From contig NC_017094.1 of assembly GCF_000284315.1 (NCBI RefSeq), forward strand, positions 2,263,486 to 2,327,485: 64,000 bases of DNA, in the 5' to 3' direction. Position 1 is the stretch's first letter, and the number at the start of each line of letters is the position of its first letter. Source of the DNA: Leptospirillum ferrooxidans C2-3 (GTDB lineage Bacteria; Nitrospirota; Leptospirillia; Leptospirillales; Leptospirillaceae). Shown one piece after another: positions 11,958-54,307 of the stretch. The notes under the pieces are model-generated. The model made no database searches. It saw only the letters and a list, made by a program, of their open reading frames with translations, and had not been told where the DNA came from. The translations under genes and the position numbers were made by a program.

Positions 11958-12043
11958 CCCATCAATTGAATTATCTGCTCAAACATGATTGAATCCAATG
12001 GGGATGATCAAAGCAGATTCGTGCATGGGTGGGAAAGTCACTG

Positions 12044-12646
12044 ATGTCATTTGCCGATTCTTCTGAACACGAGATCGAACCTGAAAGAAAAGTCGGAAAA
12101 CTCAAAGCGTTTCGATTTTTTGGAGCCAGACGGGAATCCAAAAAACGCGCAAGAGCGCTCACACTGGGCGGGAATATCCTCGTATTGTGTCTGGGGAATA
12201 TCTGCCGAAGTCCGGTCGTTGAAACCCTTCTCAAAAAAAGTCTCCCGGGAGAGCTCTTCCAGATTCGCTCCAGGGGGCTTCTTCCACTCGATTCCCAACC
12301 GTCCCCGGAGGATTATGCCAAACAGGCCAAAAGTCTTGGCGTGGATCTTTCCGACCATTTGTCCAACCCCATTTCCGCTGAAGACATCTCATGGGCAACC
12401 ATTATCCTGATCATGGACGACTCCAACAGGGAGGGGCTCAGGAGATATGGGGAGATGGCACTTTCCAAGGTGGTCTGGCTTGGTGCATGGGATCCCTCCG
12501 GCGACATCGTGATCCCGGATCCCTTTCGTGAGCCTCCACAGACCCAGCGGCAAATCATCACCCGGATGAAGAGGGTTTCTTCCCATTTCACAGCATGGCT
12601 GATTCATACCGTGAACAGCCATCGTAACCAGATCTCCAGACCATGA
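12044..12646 (+). CDS. Low-molecular-weight protein tyrosine phosphatase (Wzb-like)
   Basis: The CX5R phosphatase loop reads VLCLGNICRSP (Cys49 to Arg55 counting from ATG 12044), and the general-acid Asp lies in IPDPF (Asp159). These enzymes dephosphorylate BY-kinases of the Wzc type and so help to cycle EPS polymerisation; the matching kinase is at 37.9-39.8 kb. About 45 residues precede the catalytic domain, longer than usual, and are charged. A GTG at 12029 is an alternative start. The domain is clearly paralogous to the C-terminal half of the ATP-grasp fusion at 28.3-30.0 kb, sharing SWA...IMD, VxLGAW and IPDP blocks. It sits just upstream of glmS. Confidence 0.85.
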   Translation: MSFADSSEHEIEPERKVGKLKAFRFFGARRESKKRARALTLGGNILVLCLGNICRSPVVETLLKKSLPGELFQIRSRGLLPLDSQPSPEDYAKQAKSLGVDLSDHLSNPISAEDISWATIILIMDDSNREGLRRYGEMALSKVVWLGAWDPSGDIVIPDPFREPPQTQRQIITRMKRVSSHFTAWLIHTVNSHRNQISRP

Positions 12647-24588: not shown

Positions 24589-25476
24589 CTACTCATTCAA
24601 GTTCAGAGTATTCAGGTTATTCGTATGATGGGTTGAAAAATAAGGATGATAGCCCCGAATACGGCTTTTTTTGAAACAAGTCCGGGCGGCCTTGAGATTC
24701 GATAGGCTTCCGTAATCGAGCGTCATGACAACCAGATGCGGGTTGATCTTCAGCGCCCTCACCGCAAATTGGTTGTCCCGTTGACGGACCCATTTTTTCA
24801 CATACACATACCGCTTTTTACGGAAAGAATACTGCCTGCAGAAGTCCTCATAGAGCTCCCCTGAAACATCCGGAGCGATCTGTGGAAGGATCCCCAACCC
24901 CCGGTTCACGATAACAGGGTAAAGAGGGTAATATTTGTGTATCTTTCGAAGAAGTGTGATCAGTGCGATCTTCATCCCCTTGTACTTTTTGGGATGATGT
25001 TTTTCCAGAATGATCGGAGAATCGATCGTATCGAGAAAGATCCCGGAAAATCCCTTTTTTTGATATTCCGGAATAGCCTTGTACAGAATAAATTTCTGCC
25101 AGAGTGGATTCCTCACATCGACGATTCCGGTCTTCCAGTCGGGATTGGTTCCGACAACCAGGTTGTGTTTTTTCGCAAACGTCGCCTCTTCCCCATCCCC
25201 AACAACTTCTCCGACACTGAAATATCCGAACAAAAGTGTGTGCTCCAGTCTGGGAGGATTTTCCTCATAGGGAAGGATGACCAGAGAAAACTGGGACAGC
25301 TCCTTGGGTGAAGGCATCGGAGCCCAGAGCTTGATCCCGTAATTCTGTCCCGGCTTGAGGATCTCCCCTGAAAAGGCAAAAGAGGGAATGGCTCCTGAAA
25401 AAAACAACACAAAAGCAAACCATCCCACAAGAAGTCCTGTCCCTGAGAATTGTCCCTGACTTCCCAAATATTTCAT
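24589..25476 (-). CDS. GH114-like secreted glycosidase (endo-alpha-1,4-polygalactosaminidase type)
   Basis: ATG 25476 follows CGGAGGGAG at eight bases and gives a 295-residue protein with a signal peptide (LLVGWFAFVLFFSGAIPSFA). The mature part has the TIM-barrel blocks of the GH114/TM1410 group: FGYFSVGEV, GTNPDWKTGIVDVRNPLWQK, GFSGIFLDTIDSP and SGELYEDFC. This family includes the hydrolase domain of PelA, which cuts galactosamine-rich polysaccharide. In an EPS locus that makes galacto-amino-sugar precursors, a trimming or release role outside the inner membrane is plausible. Longer readings from TTG 25551 lack a good ribosome binding site. It lies 76 bases after the next gene, in one operon. 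Confidence 0.8.
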   Translation of the reverse strand: MKYLGSQGQFSGTGLLVGWFAFVLFFSGAIPSFAFSGEILKPGQNYGIKLWAPMPSPKELSQFSLVILPYEENPPRLEHTLLFGYFSVGEVVGDGEEATFAKKHNLVVGTNPDWKTGIVDVRNPLWQKFILYKAIPEYQKKGFSGIFLDTIDSPIILEKHHPKKYKGMKIALITLLRKIHKYYPLYPVIVNRGLGILPQIAPDVSGELYEDFCRQYSFRKKRYVYVKKWVRQRDNQFAVRALKINPHLVVMTLDYGSLSNLKAARTCFKKSRIRGYHPYFSTHHTNNLNTLNLNE

Positions 25477-25552
25477 CCATTTCTCCCTCCGGACGATCAA
25501 CAGCACTTTCGCCATTCTTATGCGCTTATCATTCATTTTGAAGAAACCCAAT

Positions 25553-28265: not shown

Positions 28266-28304
28266 GAAAAATCCCAGGATCTTCTAGGACAGAAGATCCC
28301 GGGA
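28266..28304 (-). terminator. Terminator at the end of the ATP-grasp/phosphatase gene
   Basis: TCCCAGGATCTTCT and AGAAGATCCCGGGA form a 14-bp stem with one mismatch and a 5-base loop; on the minus strand it is followed by TTTTTC. The stem overlaps the stop codon of the fusion gene. Confidence 0.75.
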
Positions 28305-30014
28305 GAGATTCTGGCAGGACTCTTTCATGTGATGGATAATCTGGAGCATCTTTTCTTCCGGCTCGCCGTAAGGATCCGGGATATCGATATTCGACTCATG
28401 GGACCAGGCACCAAGGAAAACCGTCTTGACAAGAGCCGATGAGTCAAAATCCGATAACTCCCGATGATTTCCCCCATCCATGATCACCACAAGATCCGCC
28501 CAAGAAAGATCTTCTTCATTCACAAGAGACGACCTGTGACCTGACAGGTCGACCCCTTCTTTCTTCGCAAGACGGGCATACTCCCGGGGAGACTGCCTCA
28601 AGATTCTCGGAATAAACCCCGACGAACGAACCGCAAACCGGTCAGAAGGAAGAAGCTCCTTCAGACATGACTCCACAAGGGGACTCCTGCAGATATTTCC
28701 ATGGCATAGAACCAGGATATTCAGAGGTGTCCGGGATTTGCCAATCGACCTGAGCCGTTCCAGCGATTCCCGGCGAACGCCTTCATCCCTCGATTTTCCC
28801 GAGCGTTTCAGAAAACGCTTTCTCGCCATCCGAACGACCGTCGAACCCGTTCTTCCAAGCGTCCTCCCCATTTCAGAAAGAGTCGGAACCGGATCCGAGA
28901 GGAATAGATGATCCCAATGATCCTTCCCGGTCAGAAACCGGGAATACTCCAGAATCGTTTTTCCAAGAGGCTGGGTCTTTGTATAGGGATCATTCTTGTC
29001 CGCCAGAAGATTTCTCTTGAACCAGGCAAATTCCATGCTGAATCGCCGCGAATACACTCCCGCCCGATAAGGAGTCTGGGTCACTGGCTCACCCGAATAG
29101 GCCCGGACCAAGGAGAGCGGGAAGTCCACTCCGGATCGATAGGATAACGGAAGAGATCCCCAGAAACGGCCATTGACCTCCATCAGAGAATAGGCTGCCC
29201 CATCCATCTTGTATTCCACCATGGCAACGCCCGTCCAGCTGGCCGCCTTCACAAGGCGCCTGGCCGACTCAAAAAGGGCCGGAGGAGGCTCGATCGACAC
29301 CCGATAGGTCCCTCCCCCTCCCGTGAGGGGATATTCGTGCATCCTGCGATGGGCAAAAAACAGGAGAATATCCCCATCCCGGCACAAAAGTTCGATCCCA
29401 ACGCCGTCTCCCGGCTCATAACCCTGAATCAGAACATCCCCATAGACGGCCCAATCGGTCACCGCCTCGAACAACTCTTCCGGGTTTCTGACCAGACGGG
29501 CATCGAGATCGAAGCCGACATCTCCCATCCAGACCTTTGACTGTGATGTTTTCACATAATAGGGGAAAGAGACAAAATCCTCCGGATTCCATTTTCCGTC
29601 CTGAACAATCACTGTCTTCGGGACCGGAACTCCGCATTCGATCGCCAGCTGAAGGGTCTTCACCTTGTCGAAAAACAAGGAAAAAGTCTCATCCGGAGGA
29701 AGAATGACCCCCGGAAGAGGTCTCTCCTTTGCGATTTCACGAATGGGGTAGATCGTCAGATCCGACGCCGGAATCACATAATCAAAAGCTTCAGGACTCC
29801 AGATGTTCAGAAACCAGTCCTGAAACGCGCTTTTTTTCTTAAGGGGATCGGGATAGACAGAACGACCATGCAAATAACGGGAACGAAAAGCAAATGCATC
29901 CGGGGATTCTCCCGCCAAAGAGACTTTGTATCCCGCACGACCCAGACTCTGGACAATCGTAGTGGCAGCATTGCACGATGCATCGAGTACCAGAACCTTT
30001 TTTTGACCCGTCAT
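28284..30014 (-). CDS. ATP-grasp ligase fused to a low-molecular-weight tyrosine phosphatase
   Basis: The 576-residue protein has two domains. Residues 1-330 are an ATP-grasp enzyme: VLVLDASCNAATTIVQSLG at the N-terminus, VKTSQSK in the ATP lid, and VAMVEYKMDGAAYSLMEVNG with RFWGSLPL for metal binding. Residues 430-576 are an LMW-PTP: VLCHGNICRSP (Cys437 to Arg443) and general acid Asp547 in DIPDPYG. The catalytic set is complete in the phosphatase half. Such ATP-grasp proteins usually form carboxylate-amine bonds; no substrate can be named. The phosphatase half is a paralogue of the free protein at 12.0-12.6 kb. The fusion may couple a ligase step in surface-polymer synthesis to tyrosine-phosphate control; this is inference. 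Confidence 0.88.
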   Translation of the reverse strand: MTGQKKVLVLDASCNAATTIVQSLGRAGYKVSLAGESPDAFAFRSRYLHGRSVYPDPLKKKSAFQDWFLNIWSPEAFDYVIPASDLTIYPIREIAKERPLPGVILPPDETFSLFFDKVKTLQLAIECGVPVPKTVIVQDGKWNPEDFVSFPYYVKTSQSKVWMGDVGFDLDARLVRNPEELFEAVTDWAVYGDVLIQGYEPGDGVGIELLCRDGDILLFFAHRRMHEYPLTGGGGTYRVSIEPPPALFESARRLVKAASWTGVAMVEYKMDGAAYSLMEVNGRFWGSLPLSYRSGVDFPLSLVRAYSGEPVTQTPYRAGVYSRRFSMEFAWFKRNLLADKNDPYTKTQPLGKTILEYSRFLTGKDHWDHLFLSDPVPTLSEMGRTLGRTGSTVVRMARKRFLKRSGKSRDEGVRRESLERLRSIGKSRTPLNILVLCHGNICRSPLVESCLKELLPSDRFAVRSSGFIPRILRQSPREYARLAKKEGVDLSGHRSSLVNEEDLSWADLVVIMDGGNHRELSDFDSSALVKTVFLGAWSHESNIDIPDPYGEPEEKMLQIIHHMKESCQNLSRDLLS

Positions 30015-30283: not shown

Positions 30284-31408
30284 TTATCCCGGCAACAAAT
30301 CATGGTACAGGCGGCGAAGATCCTCACGGCTTTTCTCATAAGAAAATGTTTCCAGAATCCGTTCACGTCCTCGTCTTCCCATCTGACGCCGGAGATCCGG
30401 ATTCCGGGCAAGGGTCAGCATGGCCTTCGCCATTTCTTCCGGATTTCCGGAAGGAACCAGAAGTCCCGTCTCCCCCTCTTTTACACATTCCGGATTTCCC
30501 CCGACACGGGTGGCAATCACAGGTAACCCCGCTGCCATCGCCTCAAGAATCGCATTCGAAAAACTCTCTGTTTTCGAACTCAAGAGAAAGACGTCGAAGG
30601 CCGGCAATATTCGCTCCACATCCGGACGGACTCCCAAGAATCGGACGGAATCCCCGAGAGAAAGTCGCTTGGCCTCCCCTTCAAGGAACCCCCTTTCCGG
30701 CCCGTCTCCAACTTGAAGAAAAAGAGCTTCCGGAAGAACATCCTTGACACGCCGAAAAGCCAAAAGCGCCACCTCGACAGCCTTGACTTTCCGGTGGCCG
30801 GCCACGATCCCGAATACGCATCGATCATCATCAATCCCAAGCGCTTTCCGGAGAGGGGTTCTGTCATCAGGTGGAGAGAATCGTTCCCCATCCATTCCGT
30901 TGTAAACCAGAACCATTTTATGACGGGGAATGTTCTCAATAGAGACCGCCGCATCAAGGGCCGCCTGGGAATTAGCCATGATCCTGTCGGCAAGTCGATT
31001 GATGACTTTCGTCTCAAATGAAGCGAGACGATCAGAACCCCTCATCCCGAAGTCGCCCATATCTCGCCTTGAAGTAATCACTCTGGTTCCGCAGATTTTT
31101 CCGGCAAGGGCCCCAAGAATATTAGGATTGGTCTGGAATGCGTGGACGATATCGATACGGTGATGGCGAATATAGCGAACGACCTTCCATAAAGCATGAA
31201 GGCCATCAGAACCATATAATTTTGAAAAGGGAGTGATTAGAACAGGAACTCCGATCCGGATCAGACCAGACTCGAAGACATCCCCACCCCGGAACGAGCA
31301 GACATGCGGAGTGACACCGAACGAAGGAGCAAACCGAGCCATTTCGGCCACATAACGCTGACTTCCCCCTGGTCCAAGATTGTCTATGACAAACAATACG
31401 GATGCCAT
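30284..31408 (-). CDS. Glycosyltransferase family 4
   Basis: The protein begins MASVLFVIDNLGPGGSQRYV, with the glycine loop of GT4 enzymes, and carries the donor-site block SFSNAILEAMAAGLPVIATR followed by VGGNPECV. GT4 enzymes transfer sugars from nucleotide donors with retention of configuration, typically in EPS and LPS assembly at the cytoplasmic face. ATG 31408 lies close to AAGGAG; an ATG at 31426 is in frame but lies on the other side of that ribosome binding site. It stands 269 bases from the fusion gene and shares its strand. Confidence 0.88.
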   Translation of the reverse strand: MASVLFVIDNLGPGGSQRYVAEMARFAPSFGVTPHVCSFRGGDVFESGLIRIGVPVLITPFSKLYGSDGLHALWKVVRYIRHHRIDIVHAFQTNPNILGALAGKICGTRVITSRRDMGDFGMRGSDRLASFETKVINRLADRIMANSQAALDAAVSIENIPRHKMVLVYNGMDGERFSPPDDRTPLRKALGIDDDRCVFGIVAGHRKVKAVEVALLAFRRVKDVLPEALFLQVGDGPERGFLEGEAKRLSLGDSVRFLGVRPDVERILPAFDVFLLSSKTESFSNAILEAMAAGLPVIATRVGGNPECVKEGETGLLVPSGNPEEMAKAMLTLARNPDLRRQMGRRGRERILETFSYEKSREDLRRLYHDLLPG

Positions 31409-31724
31409 AAGCTCCTTCCAATGCAAACAGCATTCTTTCAGGGCTTCTAGAGAGTTTCAAAAAATAACTAATAATCACCCAAGAGGGGGGAATTTCCATA
31501 CGAGGCCACATCCATTACCCAAGCAACCCAATTCTAGAATGATGATCCAAGTCAAAAAAGAATTCAAACCCAAAAATAATCATTTTTTTTTATTACCCAA
31601 TAAAACATATGATCAAAAACAATCTGTCAACATTGCGGACAACTGTCAGGTTATTTTACACAACAATAAGGGCATGCCACCAAAAAAATTTCCACAAGTA
31701 GTAATATAAAAAAGAAAAAAATTT

Positions 31725-31842: not shown

Positions 31843-32847
31843 GTGGAACTTTTCAGCAAAAGAACTTCCCATAAAATGAACTCGCTCTTCTCCATTGCCA
31901 TTGCGGGAGCGATTCTCTCTTCCCCCGTCATTGCACAAGCGACCATTATTGACTGGAGCAACCAGACACTGGGACAAATCGACGCCTATAATACCGTAAC
32001 CCAAACAAACACAGTCGTCGATGCCAACGCAAACACCCCGGACAGCCTGATATTTGCAAACAACGGCAACAGCATCATCTATACCTCCAATCCAAACAGT
32101 GGATCCAATCTGTATATCTACAACATCCAGAACAAAACCAATAATATTCTTGCTTCAGGGACTGCTCTCGGCAATTCGACCTCTCTCCGGGATCTCTCCT
32201 TGACCCCAAGCGGGAATTCCGTTCTCGTTTCATCAACATCTGGCGGGGAAGTCTACAAAGTCAATCTAACGACTCAGGCAGTCACCCTTTTAACCACCGG
32301 AACCAGACCTCAGGGCATCGTATTTACACCCTCCGGGAACCTGTTTCTAAATCTTGGCTCAGGAATCGATCAAATCAATTACCCATCCGGAACAGTCGCC
32401 AACACGAACACCAACTACGGCTCCCTTGACGGTCTGACCTACGACCCGACCACTGGATATCTGTATGCCACCACTGGCATCAAAGGAACAAATCCCAGCA
32501 ATACAATTATACAGATCAATCCAACCACTCTGGCCGAATCACTGATCACTATCTCCGGTAGCAATGTTCCAACGAGCCTTCACCTCGACGGAATCGAAGC
32601 CACTTCAAATGGCAACCTCATTATCGCAAACTACGATAACAGCCTACTAGAATATTTCACTGCCACAAATACAGCCACCACACTGGCCGCGACTCCCGGA
32701 ATAGACGATGTTGCACCACTGGTCGGAGGCGGATCCGCCGATCCTTCAGCCACCCCGGAACCCGGCACATTTGCCCTTTTCGGAACAGGCATTCTCGTAA
32801 TGGCACTGTTTTCCCTCTATTCCCGCAGAAAAGCCGAATCCTGTTAG
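31843..32847 (+). CDS. PEP-CTERM protein with beta-propeller-like repeats
   Basis: GTG 31843 follows ATAAGGAGA at seven bases, the same leader as the other PEP-CTERM gene. The 334-residue product has a signal peptide (LFSIAIAGAILSSPVIAQA), a mature domain of propeller-type repeats (NTPDSLIFANNGNSIIYTS, LRDLSLTPSGNSVLVSS, GIVFTPSGNLFLN, LDGLTYDPTTGYLYAT) and a sorting tail: TPEPGTFALFGTG, a hydrophobic helix, then SRRKAESC. It ends in a cysteine, which is unusual for the tail. It is an exosortase substrate and likely surface-exposed or matrix protein. Confidence 0.9.
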   Translation: MELFSKRTSHKMNSLFSIAIAGAILSSPVIAQATIIDWSNQTLGQIDAYNTVTQTNTVVDANANTPDSLIFANNGNSIIYTSNPNSGSNLYIYNIQNKTNNILASGTALGNSTSLRDLSLTPSGNSVLVSSTSGGEVYKVNLTTQAVTLLTTGTRPQGIVFTPSGNLFLNLGSGIDQINYPSGTVANTNTNYGSLDGLTYDPTTGYLYATTGIKGTNPSNTIIQINPTTLAESLITISGSNVPTSLHLDGIEATSNGNLIIANYDNSLLEYFTATNTATTLAATPGIDDVAPLVGGGSADPSATPEPGTFALFGTGILVMALFSLYSRRKAESC

Positions 32848-35296: not shown

Positions 35297-36151
35297 ATGA
35301 ATACCATCAAAAAAAACATCATCTTCGTGATAGCACTTTTGTTCATTGCCAGAACCTTTCTTTTTCCTGGGATTTCGATAGCAGAACAGGATTCTGGAAA
35401 CCACGGCGACTACACCATCGGAGTCGGGGACAGCCTCTCCATTCTTGTCTGGGATCAGGCCAATCTCAACCAGGAGATTACAGTCCTCCCTGATGGAAAC
35501 ATCACATTTCCTCTGATCGGAAACGTCAAGGCGGCCGGAACAACCAGCAAAACACTCGCCAGAAAAATATCCAACCGTCTAAACACCATCTTCCGGAAAA
35601 AACCAACGGTTACAGTCATTGTCAGATCCATTGGGAATGACTTTTTCTATATCATGGGGGCAGTCGCACATGCAGGAACCATCCCCTACACCCACCGGAC
35701 AAGGCTCCTTCAGGCCATTATTCTGGCCGGAGGTACGGTTGTCGGGGCCAAAACGGATTCCATCCTCCTCATACGAAACAACCACACCCGCACTGTTTCC
35801 ATCGAAGATCTCCAAAAAGGGGAACATCTGGAGAAAAATATCGAGATCAAACCACAAGACGTCATTATCGTGCCCATGAGCACCGACCAGATCTATATCA
35901 TGGGTGAAAGCAACGCTCCGGGTCCCTATTTCTATACCAAGGGTCTGACGGTACTGCAGGCCCTCCTGAATGCTCACGGATTCTCCCAGTTCGCTTCAAC
36001 CGGGTCAGTCAGAATCATCCGTCAGGAAAAAGATGGCAGCAAAAAGATCATCCATATCGACATCGATCATATCGAGAATGAAAAGAAGACAGAGCAAAAA
36101 GAATATCTCAAACCTGGCGATCTGATCTATATTCCCCAGCGGATGTTCTGA
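35297..36151 (+). CDS. Polysaccharide export protein (Wza-like, Poly_export plus SLBB)
   Basis: The 284-residue protein has a signal peptide (IIFVIALLFIARTFLFPGIS) but no lipobox Cys, unlike Wza. DYTIGVGDSLSILVW begins the polysaccharide export domain, followed by VLPDGNITFPLIGNVKAAG; two SLBB-type ligand-binding parts follow (near DFFYIMGAVAHAG and DQIYIMGESNAPG). It probably forms or lines the periplasmic/outer-membrane EPS exit. GAGGAG precedes the ATG. Its stop shares one base with the next start (TGATG). Confidence 0.9.
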   Translation: MNTIKKNIIFVIALLFIARTFLFPGISIAEQDSGNHGDYTIGVGDSLSILVWDQANLNQEITVLPDGNITFPLIGNVKAAGTTSKTLARKISNRLNTIFRKKPTVTVIVRSIGNDFFYIMGAVAHAGTIPYTHRTRLLQAIILAGGTVVGAKTDSILLIRNNHTRTVSIEDLQKGEHLEKNIEIKPQDVIIVPMSTDQIYIMGESNAPGPYFYTKGLTVLQALLNAHGFSQFASTGSVRIIRQEKDGSKKIIHIDIDHIENEKKTEQKEYLKPGDLIYIPQRMF

Positions 36152-37899: not shown

Positions 37900-39825
37900 A
37901 TGAATACACTTGATGCCAAAACACTTTTTTTTCTGGCATTGCTCAGCGTCAGGAAACACAAGCTTCTCGCCTTCGTTACCTTTTTTGTCCTCTTCATCCC
38001 ATTCGTTGTGGCCGGATTGAGCAAAAAACCCATCTATGTTGCCAAAGCGACCGTATACCTTAAGCCCAACAATTATTCCACTTCGGCCATCGGTAATCGC
38101 GTCCACCCACCCAGAAGTTTCGGCATCCAGATCGCCATTTTGAAAAGCCAGTACCTTGCTCAAAAAGTGGTCCAGGCTCTTCCTGACTCCACCCTCAGGG
38201 ATCTTGAATCCGACTCCCAATACACAAATTATCAGATGAAGATAACAAACATGATCCGAAAAATGATGGGAAAGGAACCCATCGTCATCAACCCCATGCA
38301 AAAAGCCGCCATGGAGCTTCGAAACGCCCGGATGGACTTCAAGGGTGGAGCCGGCAGCATACTCCGCATCGAGGGAGAGTCCGGGAACCCAAAAGTTGCC
38401 AGAGATCTGGTCAATGCCTATATCGACACCTTCAAGGATATTTCTAGCCACTTCGCACTGGAACAGCAAGCCGACCTCGACAAGAGCCTTTCTCTCCAGA
38501 TCATGAACGCCCAGAGCCTTCTCAAAAAGAGTGAAGAAGAGCTTCTGACTTTTGAGAACAGCGTGCGATCAAAAGGTGGAAAAAAGGGACCAGTCGATGT
38601 TTCAGACTATCTCTCTCAAGAGTCGGGACTCCTCAACTCCCTCAGGATGAAGAGATCCCAGCTACTTCTCTCTGAAACCGAATCCCATCCTGACGTAGTC
38701 GCTGTCAATCAGGAAATAAGCGGTATCAAAAAAGAAATTTCAAAACTTAGAAGCATGGTGGGCCCCTCCTCTTCGGCGCCGAGTGTCAGTAGCGCCGCAT
38801 GGGAAACATTTCTCGAATCCAACGTCAAGATGAACAGGGATCTCCGAGCCGAACTGGAAGAAGAAAGAAGCTCGGTCCGAATCATCTCCGACTCTAATCT
38901 TGAAAACATGATTATCATCGATCCTCCAACCATTCCGATGACTCCGCTGATGACAAAGGGATTCCGTGTAATCATCCTGGGATTCATCGCGGCTATCGGC
39001 GGATCTGTAGGGCTCCCCTTTCTATTGATGTTCTTCAGGAAACCGATTCAGGGAGAAGACAACCTCAAAATTCTGACCGGATACCAGAACCTCGCCAACA
39101 TCCCCAGAATCCAGAGACGCCATATTCCCGAAATCAATGGAAAAAAGGTTCTCCGGATAGACCACCCATTTGACCGGGAGGAGTTCTGGGTCTTCCAAAA
39201 GGAATTTGAATCCTTCTTTCTTCGGGTCAAACGCCTTCTCAAGATGAACAAGGGCCAGGTCCTCCTATTCACTAGCTGTGCACCGGAAGACGGAAAAAGC
39301 CTCACCGTCATGAACTTGGCCATGACCATGGCAGCCATGGGACATCGCGCCATCATTCTCGACACGGATACTGTCCGAGGCAGGGTGCAGGAAAATCTTG
39401 GGCTTCCAAATTCCTTTACCGTAGAAGATTTCCTACCCAGAAATGACGGCAGCTATTCCCGGATCGTATGGGACAATACCAACCTCGCCACGATATCGAT
39501 GGGTAATGCAGGCCCGGGATTCTGGAAAAAGAATCCGGAGGCGGTCATTTCAAAATGGTTCGAGATGCTTCGCTTTCAGTGTGACTATATCCTGATCGAC
39601 GCCCCCCCCCTCATGGCTTCAACCGATCTTCTCTCCCTTCCGGCCATGATAGACGGGGTTATTATCGTGGTCCGAGACAAGGTCACTGCGGAAAAAGATC
39701 TCCTGAAAGTTGAATCTCTCCTACGCGACCATCAGTTCGAAGTCATGGGCACCGTACTGAATTACTCAAAATCAACCCATATCCAGTATTATTATGGATA
39801 TGAGGAAACATCCAGAAAAAAATGA
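37900..39825 (+). CDS. Chain-length determinant with bacterial tyrosine kinase (Wzc-like BY-kinase)
   Basis: The 641-residue protein has an N-terminal membrane helix, a large periplasmic coiled-coil part (residues about 60-370 with KEISKLRSM), a second helix (GFRVIILGFIAAIGGSVG) and a cytoplasmic kinase: Walker A FTSCAPEDGKS (Lys466), A' ILDTDTV, and Walker B YILIDAPP (Asp567). The tail is Tyr-rich (IQYYYGYEE), the autophosphorylation site of BY-kinases. It controls EPS chain length and is the expected target of the phosphatases at 12.0 and 28.3 kb. A run of nine C lies in the Walker B codons. Confidence 0.92.
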   Translation: MNTLDAKTLFFLALLSVRKHKLLAFVTFFVLFIPFVVAGLSKKPIYVAKATVYLKPNNYSTSAIGNRVHPPRSFGIQIAILKSQYLAQKVVQALPDSTLRDLESDSQYTNYQMKITNMIRKMMGKEPIVINPMQKAAMELRNARMDFKGGAGSILRIEGESGNPKVARDLVNAYIDTFKDISSHFALEQQADLDKSLSLQIMNAQSLLKKSEEELLTFENSVRSKGGKKGPVDVSDYLSQESGLLNSLRMKRSQLLLSETESHPDVVAVNQEISGIKKEISKLRSMVGPSSSAPSVSSAAWETFLESNVKMNRDLRAELEEERSSVRIISDSNLENMIIIDPPTIPMTPLMTKGFRVIILGFIAAIGGSVGLPFLLMFFRKPIQGEDNLKILTGYQNLANIPRIQRRHIPEINGKKVLRIDHPFDREEFWVFQKEFESFFLRVKRLLKMNKGQVLLFTSCAPEDGKSLTVMNLAMTMAAMGHRAIILDTDTVRGRVQENLGLPNSFTVEDFLPRNDGSYSRIVWDNTNLATISMGNAGPGFWKKNPEAVISKWFEMLRFQCDYILIDAPPLMASTDLLSLPAMIDGVIIVVRDKVTAEKDLLKVESLLRDHQFEVMGTVLNYSKSTHIQYYYGYEETSRKK

Positions 39826-41462
39826 ACGACTGCCCTTCCCCCGATGATGCACCGGATCAAGCCGTTCCCACCCCGGGAAACAGGTGGAAACTCTCCGCTA
39901 AACCAATGTCCGGGGCAAGATGGGATAATCGCTGGGAAGAAACAGAAGATACTGGAGAGACAAGCTGGAAAAAGATCCCGGATCTCCGTCTTCGGGGATC
40001 AATCGCCATTCCGCGGGAGAACGCCCCCGGAACCGGAGTTCCTCCGATCCCCCTGACGGTCTATCTTCTTGCCATCCTTCTGGGATTCATCGCATCCTTC
40101 GATGTCTCCGTTCCCAGACCGATCATGCTTCTGGGCAGCGCCATGATTTTCATCCCCCTATTCTTTAAATCTCTCCAGTATCCTCTTCCCGCATTAATGG
40201 CCCTTATCGTTTACATTCCCTACTCCAAAGCCGTTTCAGGAAATCTTGGCGGAGCCGTCACGGGGCTGAACTTCACAACCGCTATCATGCTGCTTTGTTT
40301 CCTGTCAGCAAGCGCCGTATCAAGAAGAGATGCTCCATTGGCTGTTCTTCCGGGGGAACGGTCATTTCGACATCTGGTCGTTCTTTTCTGCATACTCGGA
40401 GCCTTCTCCGTTATTCATACCGATATCTCCTCTTCCGGATTTGGCCCTCTTTCTGCACTCGTCGACTATAAACGCTGGCTGGACCCCTTTCTCGTGTTCT
40501 TTGTTTTTTCGTATCTGCTGAAAACGGAGGAAGACGGACGTCTTCTCGTCACTCTCATGGCAATGTCCCTTGTTGTCATCGGACTCGGAACGTTCGAGGA
40601 ACATCGGATCAACGGAATGGCCCACCACCTTGTCCGACTGACGGGAATCGCCCAGCAAGCGAATCAGATGGGAGCATTCTACTCAAACTATCTCATGATC
40701 ATGATCGCTTTTTTCATGATGAAGGGACTTGGTCTTCGCCGAAGATTTTTCCTCTTTTTTGGATTGGGAGGATCTCTTCTTGGGCTTTTCATGACAGAAT
40801 CCCGAGGAGATGCCCTTTCCATGGCCATCGCTCTCATGTTTTTCTTTTTTATCAGAAGTCGCATCCTTTTTCTGGGGATTGTCGCCCTTCTCGCCGTCGC
40901 CATCCTCAATGCCCAATATCTTCCCGGTGGCCTTGGAACAAGACTTCAGCGCACGGTCGTTCATCAGGACGCGAATAGTCTGGACCAGAGAACCACGCTC
41001 GATGCCAGCGCCAGAACGAGACTTGCACTGTGGAAAGGAGCGACCGCGATGATAGAATCCCACCCCATTTTTGGAGTAGGCTATAAGATGTTTCAAAGCA
41101 ACATCTACCGATATGTTCCCAAAAATGACGAAACAGCTCATCTTTCCCTCAGAAATAGGGATGCCCACAACGCTTACCTGTTGATAGGTGCAGAAATGGG
41201 CATACCGACGCTCCTGGTCTTCATCTACCTGATCTTTTCAATGTTCCGGGTCTCTTTTTACAGTTTCTGGGTCAGTACCGACCGATTCTGGAAACTCGTC
41301 TGCCTCGGAACGGCAAGCACCGTTGTTTCTCTTGCGGTCACCAATATTTTTGGATCCCGCTTCAATAGCATGATCGTTACCGGATATTTGTGGGCGCTAC
41401 TCGCTATCATCCTGAAGATCCCGATCTGGCAGATGAACAAGATCTCACAGCAAAAGACCTGA
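39822..41462 (+). CDS. O-antigen ligase/polymerase-like protein (Wzy_C)
   Basis: The 546-residue protein has a charged N-terminal region of about 75 residues, then about 11-12 membrane helices. The large periplasmic loop carries the Wzy_C/WaaL signatures GVGYKMFQSNIYRYV and RDAHNAYLLIGAEMG, with the conserved His. It should polymerise EPS repeat units at the periplasmic face, or ligate them. It overlaps the BY-kinase stop in an ATGA, which fits co-regulated polymer length. The long N-terminal soluble part is unusual. Confidence 0.85.
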   Translation: MNDCPSPDDAPDQAVPTPGNRWKLSAKPMSGARWDNRWEETEDTGETSWKKIPDLRLRGSIAIPRENAPGTGVPPIPLTVYLLAILLGFIASFDVSVPRPIMLLGSAMIFIPLFFKSLQYPLPALMALIVYIPYSKAVSGNLGGAVTGLNFTTAIMLLCFLSASAVSRRDAPLAVLPGERSFRHLVVLFCILGAFSVIHTDISSSGFGPLSALVDYKRWLDPFLVFFVFSYLLKTEEDGRLLVTLMAMSLVVIGLGTFEEHRINGMAHHLVRLTGIAQQANQMGAFYSNYLMIMIAFFMMKGLGLRRRFFLFFGLGGSLLGLFMTESRGDALSMAIALMFFFFIRSRILFLGIVALLAVAILNAQYLPGGLGTRLQRTVVHQDANSLDQRTTLDASARTRLALWKGATAMIESHPIFGVGYKMFQSNIYRYVPKNDETAHLSLRNRDAHNAYLLIGAEMGIPTLLVFIYLIFSMFRVSFYSFWVSTDRFWKLVCLGTASTVVSLAVTNIFGSRFNSMIVTGYLWALLAIILKIPIWQMNKISQQKT

Positions 41463-41538: not shown

Positions 41539-43512
41539 ATGGATCCGTCCAAACCCTCAAAAAAACAGAAAAACAATCCTGAACGCCAATTGTCCGTTTG
41601 CCATCTGTTTCCTGCACTACCCCTCCATGGAGCGGAAAATCATTTTTACTCTCTGGCAAAGCAACTTGACCCCGAAAAGACAAAAAACGCCATCTGCCTG
41701 ATCTCTGCCGAAGGAGAACTGGTCAAGGACTTCAGAGCAATGGGAATCCCTGTCACACTCATCCAAAAACATGGACGGTACGACATCTCAATCATTTGGC
41801 GGCTCAGGGCCTTTCTGAAGAAAGGTGGATTCGATATTATCCACTCGAATCTCTTTACCGCCAATTTGTGGGGAAGACTCGCAGCCTTCGGACTGAAAAT
41901 ACCGTTTGTCGTCACGGTTCACAACATTCATTCACGACACAATCCGACACAAGCCAGAATAGAGATTTTTTTCGACCGTCTGCTGGTCCTAACAACGAGC
42001 ATTCTCATCAATGTCTCAAAAGAGGTTGAATCCTCCATGCTCCGGGATGTAGGTCTTCCCCGGACCAAGCTTTGCACAATTGAAAACGGGATTGTTTTCC
42101 CGGAGCAGGGAGATCTTCCCTCAAAGCAGGAAGCAAGAAAGATGCTCGGGTTTTCCGATGACGATAATCTTCTGGTCGTTATCGGCCGTTTTGCAGCGGC
42201 CAAAAACCACATCACCTTCATCAGTTCTCTACCAGCCGTTCGGGAAAAGTTCCCAAAACTAAAAGTCCTCCTTGTCGGGAATGGTGAAAAGGAAGCGGAA
42301 ATCCGGGAGACCATCACAAGATATCATCTAGGAGACACCGTTATTCTTCTTGGGCTCAGAAGAGATATCCCGACCATTCTGTCCGCCTCGGATATCCTGG
42401 TCATTCCATCAATATGGGAAGGACTCCCCATCGTAATGCTTGAAGCGATGGCCGCAGGAACTCCCGTTATCGCAACACGAGTCGGAGGGATTCCCGACGC
42501 CTTGACCGATGGATCAACAGGCATTCTCACCACTCCCGATTCTCCATCTCTGACGGATGCGATGGTCCGAGGACTCTCCAATCTTCCCCATATGGAGGAA
42601 ATGGCCCGGGAAGCCCAAAAAATTGCGTCAAACCGATATAATATTAAAAGGACCGCCGCCCGATACACCGATGTCTACAGGACAATAACAAGAGAATGTC
42701 AGTTCCGTCGGGGAATCCGGGACATCATACGCACAATTGCCGGGAAAACTTTGTCTGTCGCTTCCCGCGCCGGGACTCTACGCATCCTGATGTATCACAG
42801 GATAGACGACACCATTGATCAGGATATCTTGTGCGTGACTCCATTCGCCTTCTCATTACAGATGGCCTGGCTGAAAGAAGAAGGCTATCATGTCATAGAG
42901 CTTGAGAAGGCTCTCGACCATCTCCGATCGGGAGCATTGCCGGCAAAATCGGTCGTCATCACTTTTGACGACGGATACGAGGACAATTACCGGAATGCTT
43001 ATCCCATCCTTTCGGAGCTCTCTTTTCCCGCTACGATCTTTCCAGTCACCTCTTTTTCCCGAGGAGAGAGCAGTCATCCAAGATATAAAAATTATCCCTA
43101 TCCAATCACATATCTCACCGCTGCCCAGATTGGTGAAATGAGCCGTAATGGCATCTCCTTCGGCTCTCATACCGACACCCATCCGCTGCTGACCAGCCTC
43201 TCTCGGGAAGCTGTCATGCAGGAAGTCTTAAAATCGAAACAAATTCTTGAAGATTGGACCGGAGCATCCGTCCATTCCTTCGCATATCCTAACGGTGCCT
43301 TCAACCCGAACTGTTTTTTATCTCTCGAAACTGCCGGCTACCGGTCTGCGCTGACCACTCTTCCGGGTCTCAATACAGACGGGACTTCCTTCTGGGAACT
43401 GAGACGAACAGAAATCAGCGGACGAGACTCCCTATTGGATTTCTCACTCAAGGTGAGAGGTGGCCTTGACTCCCTCCACAAACTCTATCAAAGCCTACGG
43501 AGGTCAAGATGA
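41539..43512 (+). CDS. Fusion of a GT4 glycosyltransferase and a CE4 polysaccharide deacetylase
   Basis: The 657-residue protein has two domains. Residues 1-390: GT4 with VCHLFPALPLHGAENHFYSL, a Rossmann-type core, and donor-site PIVMLEAMAAGTPVIATRVG. Residues about 410-650: NodB-type CE4 deacetylase with ITFDDGYEDN (motif 1), SHTDTHP (motif 2) and FAYPNGAF (motif 3). CE4 enzymes remove N-acetyl groups from amino-sugar polymers with a metal. The fusion would add a residue and deacetylate the same material, although both domains seem to face the cytoplasm, since no signal peptide or membrane helix is visible. Adjacent to another GT4 gene by an ATGA overlap. Confidence 0.9.
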   Translation: MDPSKPSKKQKNNPERQLSVCHLFPALPLHGAENHFYSLAKQLDPEKTKNAICLISAEGELVKDFRAMGIPVTLIQKHGRYDISIIWRLRAFLKKGGFDIIHSNLFTANLWGRLAAFGLKIPFVVTVHNIHSRHNPTQARIEIFFDRLLVLTTSILINVSKEVESSMLRDVGLPRTKLCTIENGIVFPEQGDLPSKQEARKMLGFSDDDNLLVVIGRFAAAKNHITFISSLPAVREKFPKLKVLLVGNGEKEAEIRETITRYHLGDTVILLGLRRDIPTILSASDILVIPSIWEGLPIVMLEAMAAGTPVIATRVGGIPDALTDGSTGILTTPDSPSLTDAMVRGLSNLPHMEEMAREAQKIASNRYNIKRTAARYTDVYRTITRECQFRRGIRDIIRTIAGKTLSVASRAGTLRILMYHRIDDTIDQDILCVTPFAFSLQMAWLKEEGYHVIELEKALDHLRSGALPAKSVVITFDDGYEDNYRNAYPILSELSFPATIFPVTSFSRGESSHPRYKNYPYPITYLTAAQIGEMSRNGISFGSHTDTHPLLTSLSREAVMQEVLKSKQILEDWTGASVHSFAYPNGAFNPNCFLSLETAGYRSALTTLPGLNTDGTSFWELRRTEISGRDSLLDFSLKVRGGLDSLHKLYQSLRRSR

Positions 43513-44648: not shown

Positions 44649-45784
44649 CCGGACTTCTATTTTTCGCCATTCTTGTCTTTCTCTATCCTCTTCTCATCTA
44701 TCCCCCCATCATCTCTCTTCTTGCGGCTTTCTTTCCGAAACCAATCCGGAAAACCGGGCTTCACCATGCTCAAACAGTCACATTCATCATCCCCGCATTC
44801 AATGAAGAAGCGGTTGTCGAAGCCAAGATCCGCAATACCCTTTCTCTTGACTATCCCAAAGACAAGATAGAGGTTCTGATCGCATCCGACGGATCGACAG
44901 ATCGAACGGTCGAAATTGCCCGGACACTCCCAGATCCAAGGATCATGATCCTTGATTTTCCCAATCGCAGGGGGAAACTTTCGGTATTGAAAGATGCCCT
45001 CTCCAGAGCCTCGGGAGAAATTGTCATCTTCTCTGACACATCGGCTATTCTCGCCAAGGACGCACTCACCCGGCTTCTGGAAAACTTCTCGGATGAAACA
45101 GTAGGGTGCGTTTCCGGACGATATATCGTTTCAAACGACATGACAAAGATCCAGGATGGAAGGAGCGCAGGGGAAAAGGGCTATTTCGAATTTGAAGTCT
45201 TCCAGAGAAGGAAGGAAAGTCTCTTTTATACCACTCTAGGGGCCCATGGCGCCTTTTATGCCATCAGACGAAGTCTTTCTCCCGATATCCCGGCAAACAT
45301 CATAAATGATGATTTTGTCATTCCAATGCTAATCGTGAAATCCGGGTTTCGGACGGTCTACGAGGAAAAGGCTCTTGTCTACGAATACCATCAGACAAGT
45401 ATTGATGGAGAATTCAAACGGAGAACCAGAATTTCCCATGGAAACTTTCAGCAGATAGCCTTCCTGAAGTCCATGCTCGGACTCTCTCATCCCAGAGTCT
45501 CCTTTGTATTCTGGAGCCACAAGGTTCTCAGGGCCTTTCAGCCATTACCACTTATAGTGATCCTGATCGTCCCCATCGCAATGGAAGGGCTGCTCCCAAA
45601 GCTCTTCGTCCTGATGCAGGGTTTGTTTTATCTGCTGGGGGCCGCTGCTATCTCAAGAAAAAGCCGATCCCGTCTTCTGGCCATTCCACTTTACTTCACC
45701 CTCGGAAATGCCGCCATTCTTGCCGGATTTTTCCGATTTCTCAAAAACCGGAAGTCAAACCTCCTCCAATGGGAAAAGAGCTGA
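44645..45784 (+). CDS. Membrane-bound glycosyltransferase family 2
   Basis: The 379-residue protein has an N-terminal membrane helix (LLFFAILVFLYPLLIYPPII), a GT-A domain with VTFIIPAFNEEAVVEAKI, SDGSTDRTVEIA and the DxD-like FSDTSAILAKDA, and two or three C-terminal helices (LPLIVILIVPIAMEG). This is the WcaA/hyaluronan-synthase-like shape. It works at the inner membrane in EPS assembly. It shares a base with the following deacetylase start. Confidence 0.87.
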   Translation: MTGLLFFAILVFLYPLLIYPPIISLLAAFFPKPIRKTGLHHAQTVTFIIPAFNEEAVVEAKIRNTLSLDYPKDKIEVLIASDGSTDRTVEIARTLPDPRIMILDFPNRRGKLSVLKDALSRASGEIVIFSDTSAILAKDALTRLLENFSDETVGCVSGRYIVSNDMTKIQDGRSAGEKGYFEFEVFQRRKESLFYTTLGAHGAFYAIRRSLSPDIPANIINDDFVIPMLIVKSGFRTVYEEKALVYEYHQTSIDGEFKRRTRISHGNFQQIAFLKSMLGLSHPRVSFVFWSHKVLRAFQPLPLIVILIVPIAMEGLLPKLFVLMQGLFYLLGAAAISRKSRSRLLAIPLYFTLGNAAILAGFFRFLKNRKSNLLQWEKS

Positions 45785-46584
45785 TGGAACACACAAAGCG
45801 CAAACGCGCGATCATCCTCATGTACCATCAGCTTATCCCGAACGATGCTCCCGGGAACTGGACTCCGAACGATCTTGCCGATCCCTATTACGGGGTCAGG
45901 GAACAGGTCTTTCGGGAACACCTCTCTCTTTTCCGGAGAACCTCACTTCCCGTGATCGATCTGGATCATTATCTCTCCGAAGAGGCTTCCAGGGAGGACC
46001 CTCCCCTATCAATCATCATCTCTTTCGACGATGGTTACCAATCGGATTTGGCCCTTGCAGGAAAAGCACTGGTAACAGCCGGATTTCCCGCCATCTTTTT
46101 CCTCTCAACCGCACGTCTCGGTGGTCATGGTATGATGACCCCGGAGCAGGCCCGTGAGCTTGCACTCCTTCCCCGTATGAGGATCGGAGCCCATGGCGCA
46201 ACCCATCGGTTCCTGACCGATTTGACAGATAAGGAACTGGAAGGTGAGCTTCAGGATGCAAAACTTAAAATTCAGGAATGGAGTGGAGAAAAAAATATCT
46301 ACATTTCCGCTCCTGGCGGCAGGATCAATTCCAATGCCATCAGGAAAGTCATGGAAGCCGGCTATAAAGGTCTTTTGACATCGAACCCGGGAGCCTATAT
46401 AAAGGGAGGGGATCCTTTTTTCATTCCCAGATTGCCGGTTACGAACACCATGTCAGTCAAACAGCTTGAATCCCTTCTTGATCCCGATTCTTTTTCGTTT
46501 CAGGCAAATAGATGGATCCGCACAGGAAGACGCCTCGTCCGGGAATGGATTTCCTCTCCCCCTCTCTCCAGGAAGAAGCCATGA
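45784..46584 (+). CDS. CE4 polysaccharide deacetylase
   Basis: ATG 45784 shares a base with the TGA of the preceding gene, giving 266 residues (the in-frame ATG at 45769 overlaps more and has no better ribosome binding site). The NodB motifs are SFDDGYQSD, GAHGATHRF and APGGRINS, the last two being variants of the usual forms but with metal-binding His residues kept. No signal peptide is visible, so it may act on a cytoplasmic lipid-linked intermediate or reach the periplasm another way. It is the second CE4 deacetylase in the operon. Confidence 0.82.
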   Translation: MEHTKRKRAIILMYHQLIPNDAPGNWTPNDLADPYYGVREQVFREHLSLFRRTSLPVIDLDHYLSEEASREDPPLSIIISFDDGYQSDLALAGKALVTAGFPAIFFLSTARLGGHGMMTPEQARELALLPRMRIGAHGATHRFLTDLTDKELEGELQDAKLKIQEWSGEKNIYISAPGGRINSNAIRKVMEAGYKGLLTSNPGAYIKGGDPFFIPRLPVTNTMSVKQLESLLDPDSFSFQANRWIRTGRRLVREWISSPPLSRKKP

Positions 46585-48713: not shown

Positions 48714-50882
48714 ATGTTCTTGAAAATCCATGACCTTTTTCCCATCATCACAATTTGCCTGACCATTGCGACCATGATTGTCGCCTATATAGCCCCCAGG
48801 AGAAAATCCGCCTCAGCCTTTCTTCTTCTGGCTCCTCTTTCGGCACTCCTTCCCGTTCTTGCCAGTTTTTTTATTTTTATTCCGCAAACACTTCTTTCAA
48901 TCGATCATAACTTTCAGCTCTGGCTGGCGGGAGAGACGCTATCGTGCCTCGGACTTATTCTTTTTTCCCTGGGGTTCTCGCGACAGGACCCATGGAAAGA
49001 AATTCGTGGCCAAAAGTTCCTCTTGGCCTTCATCATATCGGGAATCCTGCTTGCAACCTACGAGATCCTTGAAAACCCTGCCCTGATCAAGATTCTTCTC
49101 CTTCCGGGACCTTCCGTTCTTCTCATCAATTCTCCGGAAATGACGATTTTTGCATTCTTCATCATGGGAATGATCATTCTGTCGCTGTTCCAGTTGTCCA
49201 GAACATATATCTCCGCTGCAGGAGTTGAGAGATGGAACATCAAATACCCGATGATCGGAGTCTTTCTCTGGACTCTCTCCGTCTTTCTCGTTCATACCAA
49301 TCAGGTTCTCTCGGGAGGATTCGAGCGATCATTTCTCTACCTGGAGGATCTGGGACTCTTTTCCATGGATTTTCTATTCCTCTACTCACTCCTGATCCAG
49401 CGAGTCAAGGATGTTTCATTGCAAGTTTCAAGAAATGCCATCAATCGCTCCCTTTTACTTCTTCTCGGGGGGGGAGGTCTCATTTTTCTGGGTGGACTCA
49501 GCTCCACTCTCAAGGAATTCGGTCCAGTCTGGTCTCGTTTATCCTCCAGCCTTATGGTCTTTCTAGGAGTGGCCGCCCTTCTGGTCCTCTTCTCTTCCGA
49601 ACGGCTCCGACGCGAGCTTGAGTACTTCCTGGGCATCCATTTTTACTCAAGTCGGTATGACTACCGTGCCACATGGATGACACTCACAAAAGTCCTTTCG
49701 GAATCAAAAGATCTTCGGGAAATGATTCCGACTTTAATGGAAAGGACTAGGGAAATTTCTTTTGCCGAATCCCTCGTTTATTGCCATATCGGCGAAGGAA
49801 TTCCCCAAACCATCTCCGTTCGGCAATCCCTGGGATGGGACCACCCCACCCCCCTCAATAACGATATTCTGGCCCCATCCCTGTTGTCAGTCCTCCTGTC
49901 CGGATCCCCTATTCATCAAAAGGATTCTTTTACTCCCGAACAAAATGAGCTCCTTTCCGGTCTTTTTAACTCGTTGTCCGCCAACTGGATATTGCCTCTC
50001 GTCTTCCGAAACAAAATCCTCGGACTTCTCGGTTTGAATATCAAAAACACGGGAAGCAAAGGTTTGTCCGAAGATCGTCTTTTTCTTCAAGCCCTGTCAG
50101 TGCAGTGGGTCAGCCTGCTGGTCAGTGCCACACTCTCAAGGGAGATGGCGTGGACATGGGAATCGGACCTTCTTTCCGGTCTTCGGGCCTTTACATTCCA
50201 CGACCTCAAAAATGCTGGCATCGCCCTCAAGCTGATTCTCCACAATGCCCGAGATAACATCATGTTTGCCGACTTTCAGGAAGAACTTCTCCAGAATCTT
50301 CAAAGCATATCTCATCAGATCGAGCAGTCCGTTGAACAGTTTCTCTATCCTTTTCGTCAGGAGTACACCCGGCAAACCTCATTTGATGCGAACAACCTGA
50401 TCAAAAACACTCTGAAAGGGATTGCTTCGGAGAAGTATCCAGAGCTTGAAACCAAACTGAACTTTCAGGAGATTCCCCTTGTTTCAGGAAACGCACGGGC
50501 ACTTGAAACAACCATCCGGAATCTTTTGATCAATGCCCGGGAAGCCATGCAAGGGAAAGGGATCATCAAAATCGCAACACGAAGCCTTGATGGGGAAACA
50601 GTTTTGATCACAGTCTCCGACAACGGGCCAGGAATGAGTCAGGAATTTATGGACAATAATCTGTTCAGGCCTTTTCAAACAACCAAAAAAAAGGGATCGG
50701 GACTCGGCCTCTTCAGCTCGAAACTGTTGATTGAACAAAGTGGGGGACAGATCCAGGTCAATTCAAAAGAAGGGGTCGGAACGGAATTCATGATCACACT
50801 CCCAACAGGATCACCTGAGGTGGACAATGGCGATCAGGAGTCGCCCATCCTGAAAGAACACAACAACAACCTGTCCATCTAA
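48714..50882 (+). CDS. prsK: PEP-CTERM system histidine kinase PrsK
   Basis: The 722-residue kinase has about eight N-terminal membrane helices, a GAF-like domain near residues 330-470, and an HATPase: His496 in the H box FTFHDLKNAG, N box NLLINAREAM, DNGPGMS and GSGLGLFS. This layout is that of PrsK, the sensor kinase genetically tied to PrsR and XrtA. It should phosphorylate PrsR. TTG 48720 may be the true start, since AAAGGA sits six bases from it but only one from ATG 48714. A G8 tract near 49458 lies in a helix-coding part. Confidence 0.9.
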   Translation: MFLKIHDLFPIITICLTIATMIVAYIAPRRKSASAFLLLAPLSALLPVLASFFIFIPQTLLSIDHNFQLWLAGETLSCLGLILFSLGFSRQDPWKEIRGQKFLLAFIISGILLATYEILENPALIKILLLPGPSVLLINSPEMTIFAFFIMGMIILSLFQLSRTYISAAGVERWNIKYPMIGVFLWTLSVFLVHTNQVLSGGFERSFLYLEDLGLFSMDFLFLYSLLIQRVKDVSLQVSRNAINRSLLLLLGGGGLIFLGGLSSTLKEFGPVWSRLSSSLMVFLGVAALLVLFSSERLRRELEYFLGIHFYSSRYDYRATWMTLTKVLSESKDLREMIPTLMERTREISFAESLVYCHIGEGIPQTISVRQSLGWDHPTPLNNDILAPSLLSVLLSGSPIHQKDSFTPEQNELLSGLFNSLSANWILPLVFRNKILGLLGLNIKNTGSKGLSEDRLFLQALSVQWVSLLVSATLSREMAWTWESDLLSGLRAFTFHDLKNAGIALKLILHNARDNIMFADFQEELLQNLQSISHQIEQSVEQFLYPFRQEYTRQTSFDANNLIKNTLKGIASEKYPELETKLNFQEIPLVSGNARALETTIRNLLINAREAMQGKGIIKIATRSLDGETVLITVSDNGPGMSQEFMDNNLFRPFQTTKKKGSGLGLFSSKLLIEQSGGQIQVNSKEGVGTEFMITLPTGSPEVDNGDQESPILKEHNNNLSI

Positions 50883-51312
50883 AATCCTCTAAAGACATGT
50901 GAGTATAATGGTTTGACGTCGCCATCCCGGTTGATCCTATGAAACAAATGAATAGCAAAGGAGACCTATTTTCTAAGAATAAGATTCTCTTTCATTACTA
51001 CTGGAGCCAGAAAGATCAATGGAACATTGAAGATCACTCTCAAACCCGGGAATCAGCATTCACCGGATATTCCCATCAAGGAACAAGCTATTTTTCTTTT
51101 TCATTCTGATGAGATCAAGCTTCGGAGGGAGTGACTTTTTCCGCTATCTGTTAGTAAAATGTATTGTTTTTAGAGCGTTCCATAAAAACAATTCCTTTCA
51201 ACTGCAGCCGCCAAATGTTATAAATAGATCAATGAAGCGTGATCACCGTCACAAAATATGTTTGAGCGGACAAGTTGTTTTTACAAAATGACTGAAAATA
51301 GGGAGTCACCAC
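50883..51312. other. Control region before the XrtA operon
   Basis: No gene is recognised in these 430 bases. A candidate sigma-70 promoter has TTCAAC (51197-51202) and TATAAA (51219-51224) at 16-base spacing. I looked for a GG-N10-GC sigma-54 pattern on the plus strand and found none. Confidence 0.4.
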
Positions 51313-52152
51313 ATGGCAGGAGAAAAGATCGCCCTATTGATCGCCTCTGTGACAGTTATCGTCCTGTCCTGGTCGAACATTTTGAAACTGGTGGACGACT
51401 GGAACTCGCTGCCATCCTATTCCCACGGGTTTCTTGTCCCTTTCGTCGCCATTCTCCTCGTCTATCTGGATAAAAAACAATTGACAAGAATTCAGGATCA
51501 ACCATCTCTCTGGGGGATTGTTTTTATCAGCGCGGGAGTGATTTGCCTTCTCATCGGAACTTGGTCGGGCCTCGATTTCATCCGTCAGATTTCCATTCTT
51601 TTTCTGATTTCCGGGATCATTGCCGGTTACTGGGGACTGAGGACACTAAAGGCCCTCCGCTTTCCGGTGCTTTATTTGCTGTTCATGATTCCCCTCCCCT
51701 TCATCGTCTTCAATTCGATCGCTTTTCCACTTCAGATTCTTGCGGCAGAGGGCGCATCGAACATATTGAACGGGATACAGATACCTGTTTTCCGGGAAGG
51801 GACAATCATCCACCTTCCCCATATCTCCCTTGGTGTTGAGGAAGCATGCAGCGGCATTCAGTCATTGGTGAGCCTTCTGGCCATCTCTGTTCTGATGAAA
51901 AAACTGGGACATCTTGAAGGCGTGACAGGCGTTCTCTTTGCCCTGTCCGCCATCCCGATTGCCATTTTGGCAAACATGATGCGCATTGCGGGTACAGGGA
52001 TTCTCGGCTCATTTGTAAACCCTCACCTCGCGGAAGGGTTCTTTCATCTTTTTTCGGGCTGGGTCGTTTTCCTGTTTGCGTTTCTTACCCTGTTTCTCGA
52101 GATAAAGGCCATACAGCTTCTCAGGAAGAGGAGGCCGCTTGAAACCGTCTAG
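51313..52152 (+). CDS. xrtA: Exosortase (XrtA type)
   Basis: The 279-residue protein has eight or so membrane helices with the exosortase triad in order: Cys179 in EEACSGIQSL, Arg224 in ILANMMRIAGT, and His245 in GFFHLFSGW. It is a transpeptidase/protease proposed to cleave PEP-CTERM tails in the cytoplasmic membrane and hand the proteins to surface polymer. GGGAG precedes the ATG. The next gene overlaps by 14 bases. Neighbouring PrsK, EpsI, PrsR and PrsT support the XrtA type; the two visible substrates are at 19.7 and 31.8 kb. Confidence 0.92.
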   Translation: MAGEKIALLIASVTVIVLSWSNILKLVDDWNSLPSYSHGFLVPFVAILLVYLDKKQLTRIQDQPSLWGIVFISAGVICLLIGTWSGLDFIRQISILFLISGIIAGYWGLRTLKALRFPVLYLLFMIPLPFIVFNSIAFPLQILAAEGASNILNGIQIPVFREGTIIHLPHISLGVEEACSGIQSLVSLLAISVLMKKLGHLEGVTGVLFALSAIPIAILANMMRIAGTGILGSFVNPHLAEGFFHLFSGWVVFLFAFLTLFLEIKAIQLLRKRRPLETV

Positions 52153-54305: not shown

Positions 54306-54307
54306 CG

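Follow-up and report, generated by a model that had tools for sequence, protein, structure and literature searches.

Why would a bacterium make an ATP-grasp ligase and an LMW tyrosine phosphatase (LMW-PTP) as one protein, and what might the two halves do for each other? The question is raised by a gene in an EPS locus of Leptospirillum ferrooxidans C2-3, whose genome is a single 2.56-Mb contig; the 64,000-nucleotide stretch of it that we analyzed is called the window here. The reading that we favor, with a probability of roughly 0.55, is that the gene encodes a bifunctional EPS-locus enzyme in which a Wzb-type BY-kinase phosphatase is joined to a ligase forming an amide on the amino-sugar precursor of the polymer.

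The gene is an uninterrupted open reading frame of 576 codons on the minus strand (28284–30014), and the fusion proposed in the original prediction is real, with both domains above their Pfam gathering scores. It comprises an ATP-grasp part (about residues 4–389, at 28848–30005, minus strand), recognized by residue conservation and structural matches; a basic helical linker (residues 390–432, at 28719–28847, minus strand); and an LMW-PTP domain (residues 433–570, at 28305–28718, minus strand), recognized by Pfam, by its Wzb matches in the PDB, and by conservation. A full-length AlphaFold2 model of the fusion, made from an 81-row alignment, has a mean pLDDT of 94.6 and a pTM of 0.88. It places the linker helices at residues 376–403 and 406–424, and the 50 residues preceding the P-loop strand carry a net charge of +11. 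Relatives from the same taxonomic family, 53–55% identical, keep this two-domain architecture, which rules out an artifact of sequencing or of a frameshift; other relatives carry the same genes separately.

Pfam LMWPc (PF01451) covers residues 433–570 with an E-value of 1.1e-23 and 84.5 bits against a cut-off of 23.2. The P-loop, CHGNICRSP, occupies residues 437–445 and the general acid, D547, lies within DPYG, so that profile, CX5R(S/T) P-loop, and DP acid loop, the LMW-PTP signature, are all present. Across 53 related phosphatase domains C437, N440, R443, S444, and P445 are invariant, and D547 is found in 52, the lone exception being a gap; the three catalytic residues named in the original prediction (Cys437, Arg443, and Asp547) were correctly numbered.

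The assignment to a type of LMW-PTP calls for some care. The best PDB sequence matches of the fusion are Wzb phosphatases. The NCBIfam Wzb equivalog (NF007520) scored 46.4 bits against the 243 required, and other Wzb-like matches were also weak and below their cut-offs; we therefore reject an E. coli-type Wzb and would speak at most of a Wzb-like way of working. Similarly, a YwlE-like pArg phosphatase is disfavored by the Ile in the P-loop. Phosphatases of that kind carry Thr at the YwlE Thr11 position (PMC8001253), which in the P-loops listed (CxGN(I/V/L)xRSP) is taken by Ile, Val, or Leu, the pTyr-type pattern; in S. aureus PtpB the T11I exchange raised pNPP hydrolysis about 6-fold (PMC8001253). 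Some fused phosphatases have altered P-loops, CTGNVIRSP in L045 (9260–11023) and CHGNIMRSA in L148 (7851–9725) and L149, and those of L045 and L148 have no second Cys, a residue through which redox control can act.

The ATP-grasp half matches Pfam ATPgrasp_Ter (PF15632) at residues 193–314 (E 8.8e-11, above the gathering score), although its annotated surroundings are EPS genes rather than a Ter operon. NCBIfam models relate it to carbamoyl-phosphate-synthase-like ATP-grasp proteins, weakly and below the equivalog cut-offs. K117, K155, E267, E279, N281, and R283 are invariant in all 41 relatives compared. Structural matches of residues 1–392 to ATP-grasp enzymes reach Z-scores of 24–27, and those to the L-amino-acid ligase 3vot, to PylC (4ffl/4ffr), and to 2pn1 lie at 25–26; RizA (4wd3) is a Foldseek match. 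This fold search was dominated by the ATP-grasp half, and we recognized the phosphatase half from its sequence. PurK, PurT, and biotin carboxylase stand about level with the ligases in rank, and GAR synthetase was also matched, so the fold gives no substrate identity. With carboxylate-amine ligases such as 3vot, RizA, and PylC the protein shares the fold and the invariant Lys, Glu, and Asn expected of an ATP/Mg site; it differs from them in its 13–20% identity, its gene context, and the extra phosphatase at its C-terminus. Most likely this half is a carboxylate-amine ligase whose product is an amide of an amino-sugar precursor. To judge from their residues, both halves look active.

Is the pairing of the two a peculiarity of one gene? 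In a survey of 395 genomes of the phylum, the core ATP-grasp clade comprised 44 genes, one per genome, and a phosphatase accompanied 43 of them: 13 fused, 26 in tandem (6 of these judged solely from a stop codon inside the match), and 4 within a few genes, with 1 gene lacking such a partner. The phylogenetic profile thus makes fusion or tight linkage the rule in this clade. The sister ATP-grasp clades had no phosphatase nearby in the stretches read, and none was found in the locus of L084, the tree sister of the fused L056. Two genomes of Gemmatimonadota carry fusions of a divergent subfamily, and in other genomes outside the phylum the genes are adjacent, convergent, or nearby. Given the relatives in the phylum and the Gemmatimonadota fusions, we reject a lineage-specific oddity.

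The trees add a history of joining and separation. For the label “fused,” the ATP-grasp tree requires five changes, four of them forced by well-supported branches, and the phosphatase tree six, three of them forced; each change may have been either a fusion or a fission, and some joins are unsure owing to long branches. Linkage persists where the genes are convergent or reversed (L032, L033, and L094); in L032, a gammaproteobacterium, the two convergent genes overlap. In EPS loci of three Gammaproteobacteria (L161, 17795–19387; L162, 261–1850; L164, 4809–6878), a polysaccharide deacetylase takes the place of the ligase as fusion partner of the phosphatase.

It could be argued that neighboring, co-transcribed EPS genes simply became one gene when a stop codon was lost, their coupling amounting to no more than a shared operon. 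The tandem, same-strand order of ATP-grasp and phosphatase genes is common and fuses readily, and the linker is the counterpart of the N-terminal extension of the stand-alone phosphatases, which has a similar basic helical stretch. We nevertheless find this account distinctly improbable, as at least three to four changes of label, a fusion in another phylum, a second fusion partner, and linkage in convergent or reversed arrangements indicate selection for proximity. Linkage, repeated fusion or fission, and the alternative partner speak for selection that keeps the pair together. Since relatives keep the halves as neighbors and have fused them several times, it is very likely that the two work together.

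BY-kinase cycling governs the assembly of many bacterial extracellular polymers, and a candidate substrate for the phosphatase lies in the same locus. This is a Wzc-type BY-kinase gene at 37900–39825 (plus strand), recognized by TIGR01007 and TIGR03018, by its Walker A' and B motifs, and by a tyrosine-rich tail (YSKSTHIQYYYGYE). Both TIGR matches fall below the family cut-offs and the Walker A' motif is unusual (DTDTVR); the kinase is divergent and may be a pseudokinase, perhaps inactive. One paper (PMC12004946) reports such a tyrosine pseudokinase in an EPS pathway. The fusion phosphatase is 10.9 kb from the kinase, and its gene is divergent from the kinase operon; in most relatives the distance is 16–52 kb, farther than in the classical wzb-wzc pair.

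The tie to BY-kinase loci made in the original prediction holds up well. By TIGR03018 searches, all 27 genomes checked have a BY-kinase-type gene no more than 55 kb from the phosphatase of the ATP-grasp–phosphatase pair (“the module,” fused or separate), on the same strand in 25, which is the sharing of an EPS locus with a Wzc-type kinase expected of a Wzb-type phosphatase. For ten near-closed genomes the joint chance of such closeness would be about 1e-13 if they were independent; this figure is too strong, since gene order is passed on by descent and accounts for part of the closeness, and since the kinase-like matches were selected by open-frame length among the matches listed.

It is important to remember that the window genome has other phosphatases. 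As had been noted from the start, a stand-alone paralogue stands beside a glmS-like gene: at 12029–12646 (plus strand; Pfam LMWPc 6.9e-20; P-loop CLGNICRSP), it is 47% identical to the C-terminal half of the fusion. This genome has three LMW-PTPs, the fused domain included, so the paralogue could be the kinase phosphatase instead. The module phosphatase is the sole LMW-PTP match in three genomes (G100, G347, and G154) and the sole full-length one in three more (G168, G203, and G027).

These counts also bear on the idea that the LMW-PTP is a metabolic enzyme, acting on a small molecule of the pathway or a lipid-linked sugar phosphate before or after the ligase step. Two different biosynthetic partners, ligase and deacetylase, would suit a pathway enzyme no less than a regulator, and the phosphatase has a conserved place within a biosynthetic block and not beside the kinase. 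In one large family of the phylum this block reads femAB-DegT-GT2-(SxtJ)-deacetylase-ATP-grasp-phosphatase-(methyltransferase)-O-ligase-GT4s-asnB-like, where femAB matches TIGR03019 above the cut-off, DegT is an aminotransferase, and the O-ligase is TIGR03097-like. We doubt this idea strongly, however: the full PTP signature is kept, the nearest solved relatives are Wzb, several genomes show no other LMW-PTP, and every genome checked has a BY-kinase-type gene in the locus.

How, then, would the bifunctional enzyme that we favor work? It builds on two domains with intact catalytic residues, tightly linked through repeated fusion or fission, in EPS loci with a BY-kinase-type gene. The C-terminal half, as a Wzb-type phosphatase, would strip phosphate from the tyrosine-rich tail of the Wzc-type BY-kinase of the locus and so contribute to the cycling of this kinase, which controls how the polymer is assembled and exported; Wzb plays the same part for Wzc. 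The substrate of the N-terminal ligase would be a small carboxylic acid, in all probability an amino acid, which it would activate to an acyl phosphate and couple to an amine of a sugar precursor bound to a nucleotide or a lipid; relatives are likely to obtain this amine from a DegT aminotransferase or a deacetylase. Joining the halves would keep the phosphatase at the site of precursor synthesis, perhaps through the basic helical segment between them. That the kinase is the substrate, that the amide forms on the precursor, and that the benefit is co-localization, not cross-regulation, are our inferences.

Cross-regulation was the thrust of the original prediction, which saw a single switch acting on both a building reaction and polymer control. 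In such a scheme the phosphatase domain or its kinase would control the ligase and set polymer modification and chain length together; the BY-kinase would phosphorylate the ATP-grasp half, and the phosphatase tethered to it would reverse this. It is true that exactly these two activities have been fused repeatedly, that a BY-kinase-type gene lies in the same loci, and that BY-kinases phosphorylate other enzymes too. Against this stand the sister ATP-grasp clades that have no phosphatase, the fusions of the phosphatase to a deacetylase in other bacteria, and the absence of an identified regulatory tyrosine. A switch acting on the ligase is possible but not indicated, and we regard it as quite unlikely. 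Because of the sister clades and the deacetylase fusions, the coupling is better described as co-localization in one pathway.

A wider version of the bifunctional-enzyme reading can be put forward tentatively, although we think it unlikely. The tethered phosphatase would be a general, overlooked kinase-resetting part of a broad class of EPS loci, repeatedly fused to enzymes that modify polymer amino sugars, be it ligase or deacetylase, and precursor modification and BY-kinase cycling would be coupled in one complex.

The families of both halves were already known; what appears to be new is their recurrent fusion in EPS loci. Like the Wzb/Wzc pairs of EPS and capsule loci, the module has a CxGNICRSP P-loop, a DPY acid loop, and a Wzc-type kinase gene in the locus; unlike them, its phosphatase is fused or adjacent to an ATP-grasp ligase and is not next to the kinase but 5–52 kb away. 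XrtA/PEP-CTERM loci (Haft et al. 2006, PMC1569441) share femAB (TIGR03019) and TIGR03097-like O-ligase neighbors with module relatives, and exosortase, EpsI, and PrsT with the window; the text of that article mentions neither phosphatase nor ATP-grasp nor ligase. Our literature searches for ATP-grasp with LMW-PTP, exosortase, or PEP-CTERM returned nothing relevant and no account of the pair among the papers searched, an absence that is weak evidence. The papers found do not point out a phosphatase for exosortase-type loci; the recurrent fusion names a candidate and ties it to two enzymes of amine chemistry, which suggests that the polymers bear amide-linked groups added by a complex that would reset the export kinase as well. 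Such polymers are important in the formation of biofilms and flocs, among others by bioleaching and wastewater bacteria.

The fusion indeed lies in an EPS/exosortase locus, as originally proposed, and the module loci are EPS loci. Exosortase is common yet apparently dispensable: of 36 genomes 30 have one, which in the family of the window shares the locus of the module, and it was not detected in two module carriers (G245 and G249), which leads us to reject an exosortase-specific module as a strict rule. Upstream of the fusion, across a 269-nt gap, lies a GT4 glycosyltransferase gene recognized by Pfam (30284–31426, minus strand). The plus strand carries an XrtA-type polysaccharide export protein (35297–36151; TIGR03027 above cut-off), an O-antigen ligase/polymerase-like protein (39822–41462; PF04932), and a polysaccharide deacetylase-type protein (45769–46584) found with an in-house profile (deac2) built from a cluster of relatives. 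No femAB or DegT neighbors were recognized in the window. An XrtA/PEP-CTERM gene set at 48714–57583 (plus strand), assigned by TIGR models, comprises PrsK-like, exosortase, EpsI, PrsR-like, and PrsT genes; TIGR02914 and TIGR02917 score above their cut-offs, and TIGR02916 and TIGR02915 below. The exosortase itself (51313–52152, plus strand) matches PF09721 at 1.4e-68 and TIGR02602 above cut-off.

Some further features of the window can be recorded. At 51313–52894 the overlapping exosortase and EpsI genes jointly span a single long XrtD-type model (residues 3–249 and 279–486), a pair that is either naturally split or not yet fused. In a 657-aa protein at 41539–43512, in-house profiles recognize a GT4 glycosyltransferase joined to a domain that resembles polysaccharide deacetylases. 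A GH114-family glycoside hydrolase gene (24589–25551) lies beside a tRNA-Val gene (24237–24311). Two PEP-CTERM proteins (19698–20690 and 31843–32847) are likely exosortase substrates, and a FeeM-type N-acyl amino acid synthase gene (21095–22006; PF21926, 6e-39) adjoins a PEP-CTERM protein gene.
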